Both the position numbers and the translations under genes were made by a program. The notes beneath the pieces are model-generated. The model worked only from the letters and a program-made list of their open reading frames with translations. It was not told the DNA's origin and did not search any database. From contig JABMSB010000084.1 of NCBI GenBank assembly GCA_013202205.1, positions 1-45,809 of the forward strand: a stretch of DNA of 45,809 bases. Reading direction: 5' to 3'. The first letter of the stretch is position 1; every line of letters starts with the position of its first letter. Positions 1 through 34,841 of the stretch are shown piece by piece. Source of the DNA: Candidatus Omnitrophota bacterium. GTDB lineage: Bacteria > Omnitrophota > Gorgyraeia > JABMSB01.

Positions 1-37
1 ATATTTAAGGCTTTTACTAAGTGTAAGAGTGTATATA

Positions 38-69
38 GACAACCTTAACACAAAGGGTTGTCTTTTTTT
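38..69 (+). terminator. Intrinsic terminator or leader hairpin upstream of the repeat protein gene
   Basis: A perfect 7-bp stem, GACAACC (38-44) with GGTTGTC (56-62), is followed at once by seven T residues (63-69). This is the form of a rho-independent terminator on the + strand. It probably ends a gene lying before the window. Only 36 nt separate the T-run from the next start codon and I find no sigma70-like promoter there, so it could instead be an attenuator in that gene's leader. Confidence 0.7.
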
Positions 70-105
70 ATTGTGTAAACAGGAGATTAAAAACAGGGGG
101 GCAAG

Positions 106-1503
106 ATGATTAGGAAGATATTGAGTATGGTGTTGGTGATAGGGATGGTTATGTTGAGTGTGCCTGCGGATGTATTTGCATATTGCTTTGGGTGCGGAGC
201 TGAAGAGTATGACTGCTACTGTGCTCCCGAGGGAGGAGCAGATATACCCGAGTCTCCTGGAGAAGGCCACGAAGGACCCGATACAACGCCACCAATTGAT
301 GGACCGCAACCACCTCCAGGCGAGGGAACTGGTACTGGTACAGATGGACCTCCTCCGGGCGAAGAACCTCCAGTAGATATCGGCGAAGATACAGGCGAAG
401 AACCTCCAGTAGATATCGGAACTGGTGAGGAAGCTGGTACTGGATATGGTACTGGTTCGGAATATGATCCTGGTGTTGGGTACACTGATCCTGCCCCTGA
501 AGTTGACCTTGGCGATGGACTAACTGAAGTAACCTACACAGATCCGTTTACTGGTGAAACATGGACGGTCATTTACGACAGTGATGGCAATGTTGTAGGC
601 GGTAGTGTTGATATAGGCTCTCACGAGGAATCAGGTACTGGATATGGTACTGGTCCAGGATATGATCCTGGTGCCGGCGAGGGGAGTGGTACTGGTACAG
701 AGGGACCACCTCCGGGTGATGAACCACCGGTACCAGAACCCGAACCTGAGCCAGCACCCGAGCCAGAACCGGAGCCTGTACCTGAAGGTGATGGAGACAT
801 AGCACCTGCCGCAGCGGCGCCAGGTAGCGGGGTAACGCAACCAGCGTCAGCAGCACCCAGCGGGGTAACGCAATCAACGTTAGCAGCACCCAGCGGGGTA
901 ACGCAATCAGCGTCATCAGAAGAGAATATAGATAATGACAATAACCCTTGTAGTTACTGCGGCGCTCTACTACATAGCGACCCATCTGATTGTCTCGGCG
1001 CTCCTACCAGTGATGATGAACCTGCGTATGACCCTGACTCTATGGATGTGACTGTTAATTACGTGATAAGAGAATCTGATGGATTTGAAAGAAGTATCGA
1101 TGCGGAGGATGCCCGAGTCAGCACAGATGAAGATGGAAACATGGTGCTAAAATACACGGGACCAGGCGGTATTCGGATCGAATATCCTATTAATGCGAAT
1201 GAAAGCTTATACCTCCTCACCAGGAATAATTCTGATGGTACTTCGGATCTAGTGAATCTTCGTAATCCAAGCCGCACGCTGCATCAAAAAAGCGATGGCA
1301 CCCAAGAGCTTGTGGAGGTGACTGATAGTGGAACTGAAGTAAGAACCGTTGTTTTAGACTCGAATTTTAAAATTCCGCCTGAATATAGGCCTGACGGTAC
1401 GTCTGGATACACTCAAGAGATACAGTTGAAATTGTTTTACATGACGGGCGGAGTGGACGATGAGAACACTGAGTTTGATAACGTCCTGATTGTTTCTTTA
1501 TAA
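106..1503 (+). CDS. Secreted low-complexity Pro/Gly/Glu/Thr-rich repeat protein
   Basis: I do not recognise this 465-aa protein. It begins with a clear signal peptide (basic MIRK, hydrophobic residues 5-19, likely cleavage after VFA at about residue 25). It then has a Cys cluster (C27, C30, C37, C39) and about 230 residues of low complexity: GTGTDGPPPG-type units, GEEPPVDIG repeats, an EPEPEP run and three APSGVTQ-like units. A second Cys motif follows at C282, C285 and C296. Both Cys clusters share the pattern CxxCGA...DC. The C-terminal 150 residues are of ordinary composition (around GIRIEYPINANE and SDGTSDLVNLRNPSR) and may form a folded beta-rich domain. The start has a G-rich ribosome site (GGGGGG, about 96-101). 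It is probably exported to the periplasm or cell surface; its function is unknown. It stands alone, convergent with the sigma/anti-sigma genes. Confidence 0.75.
   Translation: MIRKILSMVLVIGMVMLSVPADVFAYCFGCGAEEYDCYCAPEGGADIPESPGEGHEGPDTTPPIDGPQPPPGEGTGTGTDGPPPGEEPPVDIGEDTGEEPPVDIGTGEEAGTGYGTGSEYDPGVGYTDPAPEVDLGDGLTEVTYTDPFTGETWTVIYDSDGNVVGGSVDIGSHEESGTGYGTGPGYDPGAGEGSGTGTEGPPPGDEPPVPEPEPEPAPEPEPEPVPEGDGDIAPAAAAPGSGVTQPASAAPSGVTQSTLAAPSGVTQSASSEENIDNDNNPCSYCGALLHSDPSDCLGAPTSDDEPAYDPDSMDVTVNYVIRESDGFERSIDAEDARVSTDEDGNMVLKYTGPGGIRIEYPINANESLYLLTRNNSDGTSDLVNLRNPSRTLHQKSDGTQELVEVTDSGTEVRTVVLDSNFKIPPEYRPDGTSGYTQEIQLKLFYMTGGVDDENTEFDNVLIVSL
358..419 (+). repeat. Direct repeat, 26 nt twice with a 36-nt period
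   Basis: Positions 358-383 and 394-419 are identical (beginning GGCGAAGAACCTCC and ending AGATATCGG). They lie in frame in the secreted repeat protein and encode two GEEPPVDIG units. Identity at the DNA level suggests recent slippage or duplication. Confidence 0.9.
825..920 (+). repeat. 33-nt tandem repeat, about three copies
   Basis: Copies start at 825, 858 and 891 and share the core AGCGGGGTAACGCAA. The period is 33 nt, so each copy adds 11 residues (S/A-A-P-S-G-V-T-Q-type) to the secreted protein. Copies 2 and 3 are almost identical. Being contiguous and in frame, they are coding tandem repeats and not CRISPR-like. Confidence 0.9.
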
Positions 1504-1556
1504 GCAATAGTAGGTGATACAGTAATCGGTATAAAAAATGGTAAAATAGAGCCGTT

Positions 1557-1575
1557 CCTAAGGGGGTACCTTAGG
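1557..1575. other. Short perfect hairpin after the repeat-protein gene
   Basis: CCTAAGG (1557-1563) pairs with CCTTAGG (1569-1575) around a 5-nt loop. There is no T-run, so it is not itself a terminator. It sits 10 nt before the strong terminator stem and may protect the 3' end of the upstream mRNA. Confidence 0.5.
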
Positions 1576-1585
1576 GAAGAGGATA

Positions 1586-1619
1586 AGTAGCCAGGGTTTA
1601 AAATCCTGGCTACTTTTTT
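1586..1619 (+). terminator. Strong rho-independent terminator of the repeat-protein gene
   Basis: A 10-bp perfect stem, AGTAGCCAGG (1586-1595) with CCTGGCTACT (1605-1614), is followed by T1614-T1619. It works on the + strand only, since the other side lacks a T-run. The stop codon of the anti-sigma gene on the opposite strand (1610-1612) lies inside the stem, so the two convergent transcripts overlap here. Confidence 0.85.
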
Positions 1620-2026
1620 ATATCTATGCGGTCCATTATGCGGTGGAGGCCCTTGTTGTCGCGTTCTTTCCAGGCGTTGTGGATCATGATGAGTGTTTTC
1701 GTGGCGCGGGAGTCGAAGATCCATTTTAGACTCAAGATGACTGTTGCTGTGAGAAACTGTAAAAAGTAGCGCGGCAGGGCAAAAGATAACCCGAATGATA
1801 GACCGCTGGCCAACAACCAGCGGTTCTTTTTTGCGAATTCGATTAAACCATTCCAAAGACCTTTTTTAGTAGGCATATCTGTCTCCTTTGCGATAACCAA
1901 ATTTTCGAGACACTCCGGGCAGCCTGCAAGATGTTTCTCAATTTCCACACGAGGGCCATCACCCAAATCTCCGTCGAGATAGGCGAGCAGCCTCAATTCA
2001 TCCGGACATCTATTAATAGTTCTCAT
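1610..2026 (-). CDS. Membrane anti-sigma factor with zinc-finger (zf-HC2/ZAS) domain
   Basis: This 138-aa protein probably binds and restrains the ECF sigma factor encoded just upstream. Residues 7-39 have the ZAS pattern: Cys7, then His32-x3-Cys36-x2-Cys39, the usual zinc ligands of anti-sigma factors. A hydrophobic stretch at about residues 68-103 gives one or two membrane segments, followed by a short basic tail; there is little room for a large periplasmic sensor domain. Its ATG overlaps the sigma stop codon by 4 nt (ATGA, 2023-2026), so translation is probably coupled. The stop lies within the terminator stem of the convergent gene. Family assignment rests on the motif, gene order and membrane segment; the signal it responds to cannot be read from the sequence. 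Confidence 0.85.
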   Translation of the reverse strand: MRTINRCPDELRLLAYLDGDLGDGPRVEIEKHLAGCPECLENLVIAKETDMPTKKGLWNGLIEFAKKNRWLLASGLSFGLSFALPRYFLQFLTATVILSLKWIFDSRATKTLIMIHNAWKERDNKGLHRIMDRIDIKK

Positions 2027-2607
2027 TTTAAAGATCCCTCCATGCCGCGTTTTTTAAGTTCCTTCCTCAATTTCGATTTACCTCTCATTAGCGAAATAGC
2101 CACCGTTCCTATGGGTATCCTTATCAACTCGGATATCTGGCGGTAGCTATACTTTTCCATAAACTTAAGTTTTATGATCAATCTTTCCCTGTGAGGTAAT
2201 GCGGCAAGCGCATCTTCCAAAAGGACGGAGACCTTTGGTGAAATCGCGGCGGATTCAGAATATAAGATTTTGTGTGAAGGCGTAGGCCTCCTAAGATATT
2301 TATTCTTCCTCAAGTAGGTCGCTACTTCATTACAGGTAACGAGAGCAAGCCACACAGCGACCCTCTCCTTTTTTTTGAGGCCTTTAAGGGCACATTTCTC
2401 ATAGATGCGCAGGAAAAGGTTCTGTCGTATCTCATCGATCTCATCCCAGGGTAGATCAATAGACCAGCGTTTGAGCCTCTTTTGGGCAGCCCAAAAAATA
2501 AGAGGCGAGAAACGCCTTATAAAATTATCCCAGGCGAAATCCTCCCCTCGTAAACATCCCTCTACCAGTCTTCTATCTCCAGCAGGATCCGGTTTAAAGC
2601 GTCTCAT
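2023..2607 (-). CDS. ECF-type RNA polymerase sigma factor (sigma-70 family)
   Basis: This 194-aa protein is the usual length for an ECF sigma factor. A region 2 helix is seen around DEIDEIRQNLFLRIYEK (promoter -10 recognition and core binding). A region 4 helix-turn-helix lies near the C-terminus, with the typical LPHRERLIIKLKF...YSYRQISELIRIPIGTV pattern. It is followed by its anti-sigma gene with a 4-nt overlap. Transcription probably starts at the near-consensus promoter at 2647-2675. That promoter looks like a housekeeping sigma70 site, so the sequence gives no evidence of autoregulation. The ATG at 2607 has only a weak ribosome site; a GAGGGG lies about 20 nt upstream, a little far. The target genes are unknown; the envelope operon starts divergently 180 nt away but has a sigma70-type promoter. 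Confidence 0.9.
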   Translation of the reverse strand: MRRFKPDPAGDRRLVEGCLRGEDFAWDNFIRRFSPLIFWAAQKRLKRWSIDLPWDEIDEIRQNLFLRIYEKCALKGLKKKERVAVWLALVTCNEVATYLRKNKYLRRPTPSHKILYSESAAISPKVSVLLEDALAALPHRERLIIKLKFMEKYSYRQISELIRIPIGTVAISLMRGKSKLRKELKKRGMEGSLK

Positions 2608-2646
2608 CTCGAAATCTATAGGTTATCCCCTCGGATCCTGTAGAGA

Positions 2647-2675
2647 ATTATACGTGAAAATCCCCATTTCGTCAA
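2647..2675 (-). promoter_or_regulatory. Sigma70-type promoter for the sigma/anti-sigma genes
   Basis: On the - strand: TTGACG (2675-2670), a 17-nt spacer, TATAAT (2652-2647). This is a near-consensus housekeeping promoter. The predicted start is near 2640, about 33 nt before the sigma factor ATG. Confidence 0.8.
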
Positions 2676-2698
2676 GCCTAAAAACTCCCTATTTTCTC

Positions 2699-2719
2699 CT
2701 TAACACCTTATGGTGTAAT
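2699..2719. promoter_or_regulatory. Inverted repeat between the two divergent promoters (possible operator)
   Basis: ACACC (2703-2707), TTAT, GGTGT (2712-2716), extended by A/T-rich arms (TTA left, TAA right) to a near-palindrome. It lies upstream of both -35 elements and outside both transcripts, so it would act as DNA, for instance as a dimeric regulator site. No T-run follows. Confidence 0.3.
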
Positions 2720-2732
2720 TAGTTAATTATTA

Positions 2733-2761
2733 TTGACTATATATTACTATTATGTTACAAT
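2733..2761 (+). promoter_or_regulatory. Sigma70-type promoter of the envelope (Kdo/LPS) operon
   Basis: TTGACT (2733-2738), a 17-nt spacer, TACAAT (2756-2761). The predicted start is near 2768, giving a leader of about 20 nt to the ATG at 2788. This position excludes the upstream in-frame ATG at 2752, which would lie before the transcript. Confidence 0.8.
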
Positions 2762-2787
2762 ATGGCTTCTTAAAAAGGGAGCTCAAA

Positions 2788-3744
2788 ATGACCAAAACCA
2801 AGCGGCAAAATCACCATATAGACCTAAATAAGATCAAGACCTATTCAGCCAAGAAGCGTAAGAGCAAGGTTCGTCAAGAGGACTTTGCCAAGCCCACTTC
2901 CCGCGGAAGCAGCTTCTCCGCATTCTATTCTTCACTACCGGGTATATTGGCAGGCAGCGATTTTAAGGCAGTCGTAAAAGCTATTGTTTCAGCGAAGAAG
3001 AAGCGCAAGATGGTTATCTTCATGATGGGCGCGCATGTGATCAAGTGTGGCCTATCGCCACTCGTAATAGACCTGATGAAGAAAGGTGTTATCAAGGCAG
3101 TGGCGATGACAGGTGCCGGGCTTATCCACGATACAGAGCTTGCCATGATGGGACGCACGAGCGAAGATGTAGCAGAAGGTGTAAGAGATGGAAGCTTTGG
3201 CATGGCAGAGGAGACGGCGTCATTTATAAACGGATCTATAGATTTAGGTTTTAGAAAGGGTTTGGGTATAGGTGTCGCGGTAGGAGAGTGCCTGATCAAG
3301 GAAGGTTTTCCACATAGGGATCTATCCATACTTGCCGCCGGTATAAAATATAAGGTTCCTGTGACGATCCACGTCGCCATAGGCAGTGACATAGTACATA
3401 TGCACCCGTCGTGTAATGGTGAGGCGCTGGGAGAAGGTTCATTGATCGATTTCAGGAATCTTATCTACAGTGTTTCAAAATTAGGCAATGGAGGTGTTGC
3501 GATAAACTTTGGTTCTGCTGTCCTGATGCCGGAAGTTTTCCTAAAAGCTATTACTGTGGCGCGCAATCTGGGCCACAAGACAAAAGACCTTACCACAGCT
3601 AACTTCGATATGTTAGCCCAATACCGTCCCCACCAGAATGTAGTGCACAGGCCGACCAAAGGGTTGGGCAAAGGTTGTAACATCATCGGCAGGCACGAGA
3701 TAATGCTGCCGTTTTTACACAGATCTGTTATAGAAGGGATTTAA
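2788..3744 (+). CDS. Deoxyhypusine synthase-like protein of unknown function
   Basis: This 318-aa protein resembles the deoxyhypusine synthase fold (NAD-binding, Rossmann-like). It has a stretch like SxxxxxGLSPLVIDLMKKGVI...MTGAGLIHD that matches the SSGIRETIRYL...TTAGGVEED region of the human enzyme. A later block (YKVPVTIHVAIGSDIVHMHP, GGVAINFGSAVLMPEVF) matches the substrate and NAD region. I do not find the catalytic lysine in its EAVSWGKIR-type context, so it is unlikely to make deoxyhypusine, and bacteria lack the usual eIF5A target. ATG 2788 is chosen because AAAGGGAG lies about 7 nt upstream and the promoter -10 covers the earlier ATG. It is the first gene of the Kdo/LPS operon, 7 nt before the heptose kinase. 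The family is supported; the reaction is unknown. Confidence 0.6.
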   Translation: MTKTKRQNHHIDLNKIKTYSAKKRKSKVRQEDFAKPTSRGSSFSAFYSSLPGILAGSDFKAVVKAIVSAKKKRKMVIFMMGAHVIKCGLSPLVIDLMKKGVIKAVAMTGAGLIHDTELAMMGRTSEDVAEGVRDGSFGMAEETASFINGSIDLGFRKGLGIGVAVGECLIKEGFPHRDLSILAAGIKYKVPVTIHVAIGSDIVHMHPSCNGEALGEGSLIDFRNLIYSVSKLGNGGVAINFGSAVLMPEVFLKAITVARNLGHKTKDLTTANFDMLAQYRPHQNVVHRPTKGLGKGCNIIGRHEIMLPFLHRSVIEGI

Positions 3745-33206: not shown

Positions 33207-34841
33207 GTGAACGATGAATTGCTAAGTGTACTAGAACATATAGAGCGTGAGAAGGGGATAAAGAAGGAAGTCCTCTTTCAGGCGATAGAGGCCGCCTTGA
33301 TAAGCGCGGCACGCAAAGTACTCGGTAAGAAGGATACGGAGGGGATTACTGCCAAGATAGACCACGAGACCTGCGAGATAAAGATCTATAACGGTGACGA
33401 GGAGATCCGCTCAGCCGAATTCGGCAGGATATCGGCGCAGACCGCAAAGCAGGTTATCATACAGAAGATACGTGAGGCGGAGCGCGATGTCATATTCGAG
33501 GACTATACCGAAAGGATAGGTACCCTCGTGAGTGGAAACGTCCATCGCTTTGAGAGGGGCGCGATAGTAGTCGACTTAGGGAAGACAGAGGCTGTTTTGC
33601 CCAGGCGGGAACAGTGCCAGAAGGAGAGGTACAGGCAGGGCGAGAGGATACGTGGTTATATACTTAGGGTCGAGAGGACGCCAAAAGGCCCCGAGATAGT
33701 CCTATCCAGGACACACCCTGGTTTAGTTAAACGATTATTTGAGATAGAAGTGCCGGAGATATCCGATGGCATAGTTGAGATAAAAGGTATAGCGAGGGAA
33801 GCCGGGGAGAGGTCCAAGATAGCCGTCAGTTCCAAGGAAGAAAAGGTAGATGCCGTCGGCGCGTGTGTAGGCATGAGGGGTTCAAGGGTCAAGAATGTAG
33901 TTAAAGAATTATATGGCGAACGCGTCGATATAGTGCGCTGGAATTCCGAGATAAAAGAGTTTGTCAAGGCAGCCATAAGCCCGGCTGAGGTAGCCGAGGT
34001 CAGAATAGACACAGATACCAATAGGATAGAGCTAATGGTTGAGAACGACCAGCTCTCCCTGGCTATCGGTAAACATGGCCAAAATGTGAGGCTTGCTTCA
34101 AAATTGGTAGGTTGTGAAATAGATATACGCAGCAAGGTAGATGCGAAAGAGAAAGAGGCGCTCGCTAAGAAACTTAACCTCTCGAAATTAGCTGGTGTGG
34201 GAAAGAAGACGGCAGAGGATCTTAAGAAGGCAGGGTTTGACACCGTACCCAAGATCGCCGCCGCAAAGGCTGCGGAGTTGTTAGGGGTGCCGGGTGTTGG
34301 AGCTAAGACGGCAGAGAAGTTGGTTGCCTCAGCGAAAGAGATGATTGCTGATATTTCCAAGAAGATGGAATCTATAAAACAGGCGAGGCGTGAGCAGGAC
34401 CAGAAAGAGAAGGTTGAAGAAGCGGCTAAAGAAATCGCTGAAGCAGAAAAGGCTGAAGAAGCGGCTAAAGAAGTTATCGAAGCAGAAAAGGCTGAAGAAG
34501 CGACTAAAGAAGACGGTGAAGCAGAGAAAACTGAAGAAGCGACTAAAGAAGACGGTGAAGCAGAGAAAACCGAAGAAGTGGTTAAAGAAGCCGCTGAAGA
34601 AGAGAAGGCTGAAGAAACGACTAAAGAAGCCGCTGAAGAAGAGAAGTCCGAAGAGGTGGCTAAAGAAGACGATGAAACAGAGAAGGTTAAGGAAGCCAAA
34701 AAAGAGACAAAAGAGCCTGCTATAAAAAAAGAGCCAGAGACCGAAGATGAAGATGAAGAGCCTCAAAAAGATGCCGAAGCCGATGAGAAGAAAGATGGCG
34801 ATGGGGACTCTCCGAAAGACAACGATACTAAGGAGGAATAG
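33207..34841 (+). CDS. nusA: Transcription factor NusA with a repetitive charged tail
   Basis: NusA controls pausing, termination and antitermination with RNA polymerase. The 544-aa protein starts with GTG, 9 nt after GGAG. It has the RNAP-binding domain (1-110), an S1 domain (about 112-180; RIGTLVSGNVHRFERGAIVVDLGKTEAVLP) and two KH domains (to about 325; GACVGMRGSRVKNVVKEL, SLAIGKHGQNVRLASKL). A helix-hairpin-helix pair follows (KLAGVGKKTAEDL, LLGVPGVGAKTAEKL). Residues 399-502 are eight 13-residue Glu/Lys/Ala repeats, then an acidic end. The core is standard; the tail is not, and is probably a long helix or disordered. Confidence 0.96.
   Translation: MNDELLSVLEHIEREKGIKKEVLFQAIEAALISAARKVLGKKDTEGITAKIDHETCEIKIYNGDEEIRSAEFGRISAQTAKQVIIQKIREAERDVIFEDYTERIGTLVSGNVHRFERGAIVVDLGKTEAVLPRREQCQKERYRQGERIRGYILRVERTPKGPEIVLSRTHPGLVKRLFEIEVPEISDGIVEIKGIAREAGERSKIAVSSKEEKVDAVGACVGMRGSRVKNVVKELYGERVDIVRWNSEIKEFVKAAISPAEVAEVRIDTDTNRIELMVENDQLSLAIGKHGQNVRLASKLVGCEIDIRSKVDAKEKEALAKKLNLSKLAGVGKKTAEDLKKAGFDTVPKIAAAKAAELLGVPGVGAKTAEKLVASAKEMIADISKKMESIKQARREQDQKEKVEEAAKEIAEAEKAEEAAKEVIEAEKAEEATKEDGEAEKTEEATKEDGEAEKTEEVVKEAAEEEKAEETTKEAAEEEKSEEVAKEDDETEKVKEAKKETKEPAIKKEPETEDEDEEPQKDAEADEKKDGDGDSPKDNDTKEE
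34401..34712 (+). repeat. 39-nt tandem repeat, eight units, in the nusA 3' end
   Basis: Units start at 34401, 34440, 34479, 34518, 34557, 34596, 34635 and 34674. Each encodes 13 residues of the type EAEKxEExxKExx. Units 3 and 4 are nearly identical at the DNA level, so the array is still changing by slippage or unequal crossing over; outer units are more diverged. Confidence 0.93.

Follow-up and report, generated by a model that had tools for sequence, protein, structure and literature searches.

Giant open reading frames (ORFs) of Omnitrophota are described in a published survey as poorly conserved and with few annotated domains, and the authors suggest a role in adhesion for their products (PMC10066038). 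The protein studied here can be compared with them loosely, being likewise poorly conserved and with few annotated domains, but it is much smaller, at only 465 amino acids (aa).

Two domain families offer further comparisons. In RHS/YD repeats (PF05593) a DG turn joins the strands of short beta hairpins, and residues 139-164 of our protein resemble part of one such repeat; its C-terminus also weakly resembles a long protein of another genome (G006), whose own RHS match is likewise sub-cut-off. Unlike RHS/YD proteins, however, it stays below the curated cut-off and has a single unit without a long array in its 465 aa. Zinc-ribbon knuckles (PF13240, PF13248) have the CxxCG form of its two cysteine clusters, the second of which gives weak half-profile matches. 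In contrast to zinc ribbons these matches are sub-cut-off, 242 residues separate the halves in an apparently exported protein, and each cluster carries an extra DC (DCYC in cluster 1). Within its own genome the gene has a twin (G000:C13:2463-3566), which is alike in the signal peptide and the DNA just before the ATG but different in the mature part, where the twin has a TSP3_bac-like repeat and a HEIVH motif.

The gene, its flanks and its leader

The window, i.e. the whole stretch of 45,809 nucleotides that was analysed, is the entire contig C76 of a 1.5-Mb genome in 94 contigs, so the ORF for this candidate secreted linker protein starts 105 bases from the contig end (Table 1). The ORF and the two Cys motifs given in the original prediction (residues 27-37 and 282-296) were borne out by the sequence, although the first cluster extends beyond residue 37 to a fourth Cys at 39. 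The description as a repeat protein, apparently secreted, in which two Cys clusters match each other also stands, the leader having been read by eye. The original prediction had not foreseen the linker beta module described below, its likeness to RHS repeats or the second signal peptide of this type in the genome.

Table 1. Coordinates of the gene, its flanking signals and the parts of its product in the window
Feature	Position	Strand	Basis
Terminator-like hairpin with T tract, 5' of gene	37..70	+	10 pairs
AGGGGGG, likely ribosome-binding site before ATG	95..101	+	read from sequence
Putative secreted linker protein, 465 aa	106..1503	+	ORF translation
Likely signal peptide, residues 1-25, end V-F-A (signal peptidase I type)	106..180	+	read by eye
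Cys cluster 1, CFGCGAEEYDCYC, residues 27-39	184..222	+	sequence
Acidic Gly/Pro/Glu linker, residues 44-126	235..483	+	mostly low pLDDT
Small RHS/YD-like beta module of four strands, residues ~133-169	502..612	+	AlphaFold2, Pfam
Acidic Gly/Pro/Glu/Ala linker, residues 171-278	616..939	+	composition, repeats
Cys cluster 2, CSYCGALLHSDPSDC, residues 282-296	949..993	+	sequence
C-terminal beta-rich region, residues 300-465	1003..1500	+	structure model, low confidence
Terminator-like hairpin, 3' of gene	1585..1619	+	14 pairs + T tract

This is a real gene, and probably a maintained one. Positions 1-2800 hold four terminator-like sites, where shuffled sequence has 2.5 on average; one hairpin alone is therefore weak evidence, and an Rfam scan of 1-3000 gave nothing above gathering score. 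On the opposite strand, 3' of the gene, lie two genes that are tied to it by position only; one encodes an anti-sigma-type zf-HC2 protein and the other a protein carrying sigma-70 region 4. Among the best 80 of 582 matches of the neighbouring gene at 2788-3741, the two nearest that bear a name come from Candidatus Omnitrophota (loci L038 and L039, 63% and 69% identity over the best segment), and the probable assignment to this phylum is based on them. L038 carries other genes upstream of its copy; L039 has no sequence there, and the other 78 of these 80 loci were covered by tblastn only. Elsewhere in the window, a 39-nt unit is repeated 7.2 times (34406-34686) in the Lys/Glu-rich tail of the protein encoded at 33207-34841, which we take to be NusA-like and which is directly followed by a presumably IF-2-like gene.

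The hydrophobic leader closely resembles that of the twin gene. The two share 64 of the 75 nt of signal-peptide DNA (G000:C13:2463-2537) and are 80% identical over 25 aa, and GGGG and CAAG stand ahead of the ATG in both. The twin encodes an apparently secreted protein of 367 aa, in which the TSP3_bac-like repeat (E 3.7e-5) is slightly under cut-off, HEIVH has the look of a zinc-protease core by eye, and no CxxCGA cluster was seen by eye. Its gene lies directly 3' of that for a Big_9/cadherin-type protein, and no relative at E <= 0.001 was among the matches listed for the other 196 of 197 genomes. A search of the own genome with our whole protein returned no match to the mature part of the twin, and the scored matches end at residues 26 and 27. 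An unmasked, uncorrected tblastn alignment does extend to residue 53 with 47% identity, through acidic Pro-rich sequence, and was taken as compositional. Copies of a single leader for exported proteins have thus likely come to stand before mature proteins that differ. The contig of the twin opens (positions 1-100) within a DEPGDPEEP repeat of the large protein of Ig/cadherin type, and it may be in this repeat that the assembly broke.

Outside the own genome, residues 1-60 reached a best E of 0.004 across 384 class genomes, with 20 of the 384, including the own genome, at E <= 0.1 among the matches listed. Short, apparently secreted proteins with CxxCG straight after the leader occur in three genomes of one family of the class (L131, L132 and L137, of 156, 155 and 93 aa, in G142, G080 and G228, respectively). 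The first two resemble each other by eye, and all three are like our protein in leader and knuckle only. A bacterial lipoprotein was considered and rejected, as V-F-A-Y-C at the first Cys, read by eye, does not conform to the lipobox rule.

Cysteine clusters, linkers and DNA repeats

All seven Cys of the protein fall inside the two clusters (27, 30, 37 and 39; 282, 285 and 296), and this clustering is far from chance. Across 100,000 shuffles of residues 26-465, even one CxxCGA-x(2-9)-DC occurred in 0, two CxxCG in 6 and two CxxC in 301, figures which overstate the case somewhat since the motif was defined post hoc. The clusters had been likened to a small metal or disulfide knuckle, and it is plausible that such clips bind metal or form disulfides. 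Cluster 2 weakly matches Zn_ribbon_3 at E 0.023 and Zn_Ribbon_1 at E 0.04, aligning with positions 11-25 of the 26 of Zn_ribbon_3, that is, its second half; both scores (14.2 and 14.6 bits for PF13240/PF13248) are under the Pfam cut-offs of 25 and 27. For cluster 1, Pfam gave nothing even at E 10. On both strands of the own genome the CxxCGA pattern has 24 matches, against 5 for the reversed pattern. By eye, apart from the gene itself, these are proteins that we take to be zinc- or iron-sulfur-like, a few frames without a label and some short ones that are spurious. A paralogue, in the form of a second exported protein with two CxxCGA clusters, was sought by this pattern in the own genome and by eye none was seen.

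Between the clusters lie 242 residues (40-281), close to the 230 or so first estimated. Repeats had been expected throughout this zone. They are present as the two Gly/Pro/Glu-rich linkers, each with a net charge of -20, but residues ~133-169 are modelled as a beta module instead. Exact repetition of the DNA, from which the original prediction concluded that the linker probably differs in length among strains, holds for a 26-nt pair only (358-383 and 394-419, 100%), the other families being 82-91% identical. These are a 57-nt pair (319-375 and 676-732, 86%), a 67-nt pair (409-475 and 607-673, 82%) whose second copy starts just before linker 2, a 33-nt unit present three times at 826-924 (91 and 82% to the reference) and a 15-nt unit present three times (87 and 87%). 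In the five copy pairs compared, all spacings are multiples of three, and seven of the eight differences between the 57-nt copies are at third codon positions, as in a translated, constrained gene. The 67-nt pair is less biased, with 6 of 12 differences at third positions. Matches of the Pro/Glu stretch to TonB (NCBIfam, E 0.75) and SPESP1 (Pfam, E 1.3) were dismissed as compositional.

Beta-rich parts and the search for relatives

AlphaFold2 was run on the mature protein as a single sequence, without an alignment, and 325 of the 440 residues have pLDDT < 50. The beta module stands out from this background, with 10-residue blocks that reach pLDDT 72-89 across mature residues 101-140 and four strands from mature residues 108 to 144. 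Alone, residues 124-173 match RHS_repeat PF05593 at E 0.006 with 17.4 bits, under the cut-off of 22, and the whole protein reaches 12 bits against the same cut-off. The match is confined to the single stretch already described, and no further YD unit in tandem was matched. The best PDB sequence match of residues 124-173 is also an Rhs protein (E 0.29). Foldseek with the low-confidence models gave nothing at E <= 0.001, and the best structure matches of the module (Z 4.3 over 41-49 residues) are tied across unrelated folds. Shuffles did as well as the module in comparisons with the C-terminus (235/1000) and with the long G006 protein (273/1000).

In a model of the C-terminus by itself, ten short strands follow one another (~317-416) and one more lies near the end, with a mean pLDDT of 45. 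The C-terminus has no PF05593 match and no PDB sequence match, its fold search returned nothing significant, and its internal repeats are not significant (59 of 300 shuffles equal or better). When the C-terminus with cluster 2 was searched against 147 relatives, the best matches were a 2295-aa frame in G006 (E 1.4e-4) and a protein in G077 (E 0.003). Local alignment scores of the C-terminus with these, 91 and 100 respectively, were reached by 0 of 1000 shuffles, and the top score among 473 open frames no shorter than 300 aa, from the best 80 of 582 neighbour-gene loci, was 59. Loci that were themselves fetched by the search and are without a repeat-protein look (L009 and L126) score 74 and 69, which leaves 91 and 100 just modestly higher than the effect of search selection. 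Across 109 genomes the lowest E of the reversed query was 0.055. At E <= 1, among the matches listed, this query found 6 of these 109 and the true query 7 of 147 besides the own genome, which is about equal, so only the two best forward matches stand out. In its scanned part the long G006 protein has its RHS match at E 0.0019, under cut-off; that of G077 has no Pfam match in its scanned part. At an E of 1.4e-4 over hundreds of genomes, a relationship of the C-terminus to these two long proteins of its class is no more than suggestive. Since the reversed query reaches E 0.055, other C-terminal matches were rejected as chance: those in a pair of genomes from a single family (E 0.077 and 0.089; presumably pseudopilin-like, one of the two loci having been read), in G282 (E 0.025; presumably NlpC/P60-like) and in G149 (E 0.037; presumably LptC-like).

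The view that no known family applies was upheld for the protein as a whole, which has nothing at the curated cut-offs of Pfam and NCBIfam and no PHROGs match. No convincing homologue was found among the matches listed for 147 relatives (C-terminus with cluster 2 as query), 384 class genomes (full length and C-terminus) or 384 phylum genomes; there is overlap among these sets, and the own genome is part of each. No homologue came from plasmids either, nor from genome_contigs and viral_contigs, where the scans reach close relatives only. No genome of the same family was among the matches listed in the searches of relatives, class and phylum. Besides the own genome, five class genomes reached E <= 0.01 with the full-length query, among the matches listed. 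In three of these the alignment is mainly on the Pro/Glu linker, and they were set aside: G339 (5.5e-5; residues 131-254), where the locus has Pro/Glu stretches beside a different protein, G094 (4.7e-4; 197-255) and G046 (0.003; 202-234). The alignment with G086 (E 0.006) runs from the leader onward, and G006 is the fifth. In the phylum search G407 (E 0.008) matched as a frame with a stop. Three exact peptide strings of the protein were without match in the papers searched. By its sequence the protein appears to be an orphan, which none of the cut-offs tested assigns to a family. Such orphans are common among exported proteins of under-sampled bacteria.

Possible architecture and role

The sequence or the model shows a leader, a pair of Cys clusters and two acidic linkers of low complexity with one beta module between them, and a second, larger hairpin-type beta region at the C-terminus is suggested only. 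Our preferred reading, which is tentative and to which we give somewhat less than an even chance, is an exported non-enzymatic spacer or scaffold of the envelope or extracellular space, built as a bead on a string with Cys clips. The order would be clip, linker, bead, linker, clip and beta region. The linkers, extended and disordered, would set a distance, and the beta parts may make adhesive or packing contacts. Each CxxCGA..DC cluster would form a small clip, with a metal ion or disulfides to hold it, and the clips may either cap the linker ends separately or pair to close the linker into a loop. By eye, neither an anchor nor a sorting signal could be made out. To place the protein at the surface is therefore a guess, and a periplasmic location fits just as well.

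Other readings differ mainly in what the clusters do. That they are disulfide clips or thiols which cross-link the protein to itself or to envelope partners, forming a covalent polymer, is somewhat unlikely; it is in keeping with apparent export and with seven Cys, an odd number, so that one or more must stay available to a partner. The same count is an argument for a zinc ribbon, as all seven cannot pair as disulfides in one chain. Here the two CxxCGA knuckles would join as one Cys4 site, with the 242-residue linker and bead as an inserted loop. The zinc-knuckle form of both clusters and the fit of cluster 2 to the second half of Zn_ribbon_3 point this way, as does the recurrence of the hexapeptide CFGCGA in a zinc-finger protein of the same genome, which we take to be DnaG-like. 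However, the lack of any Pfam match for cluster 1 up to E 10 argues against it, the models gave no Cys-Cys geometry, and a zinc ribbon across 240 mostly disordered residues outside the cytoplasm would be unusual, which makes this a doubtful explanation. A step further, the clusters might be halves of a split extracytoplasmic metal site that staples together the ends of the 242-residue loop, which is mostly disordered, built from repeats and carries the beta bead, making a metal-controlled extendable spacer, and this we regard as very improbable.

A fast-evolving orphan with little specific function, consisting of expanded low-complexity DNA between a borrowed signal peptide and an RHS/YD-type remnant, would account for the lack of convincing relatives, the signal-peptide DNA common to a different gene and the differing identities of the repeats. 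Against it, the third-position bias of the 57-nt pair favours a maintained gene, as do the open frame, the likely ribosome-binding site and the flanking terminator-like hairpins, and we consider it unlikely.

The protein is one more orphan among poorly understood exported proteins, probably of an Omnitrophota lineage. If it is true that the clips share a metal site, this would be an unusual closure of a disordered linker; otherwise it would be an ordinary low-complexity secreted protein of an under-sampled lineage.
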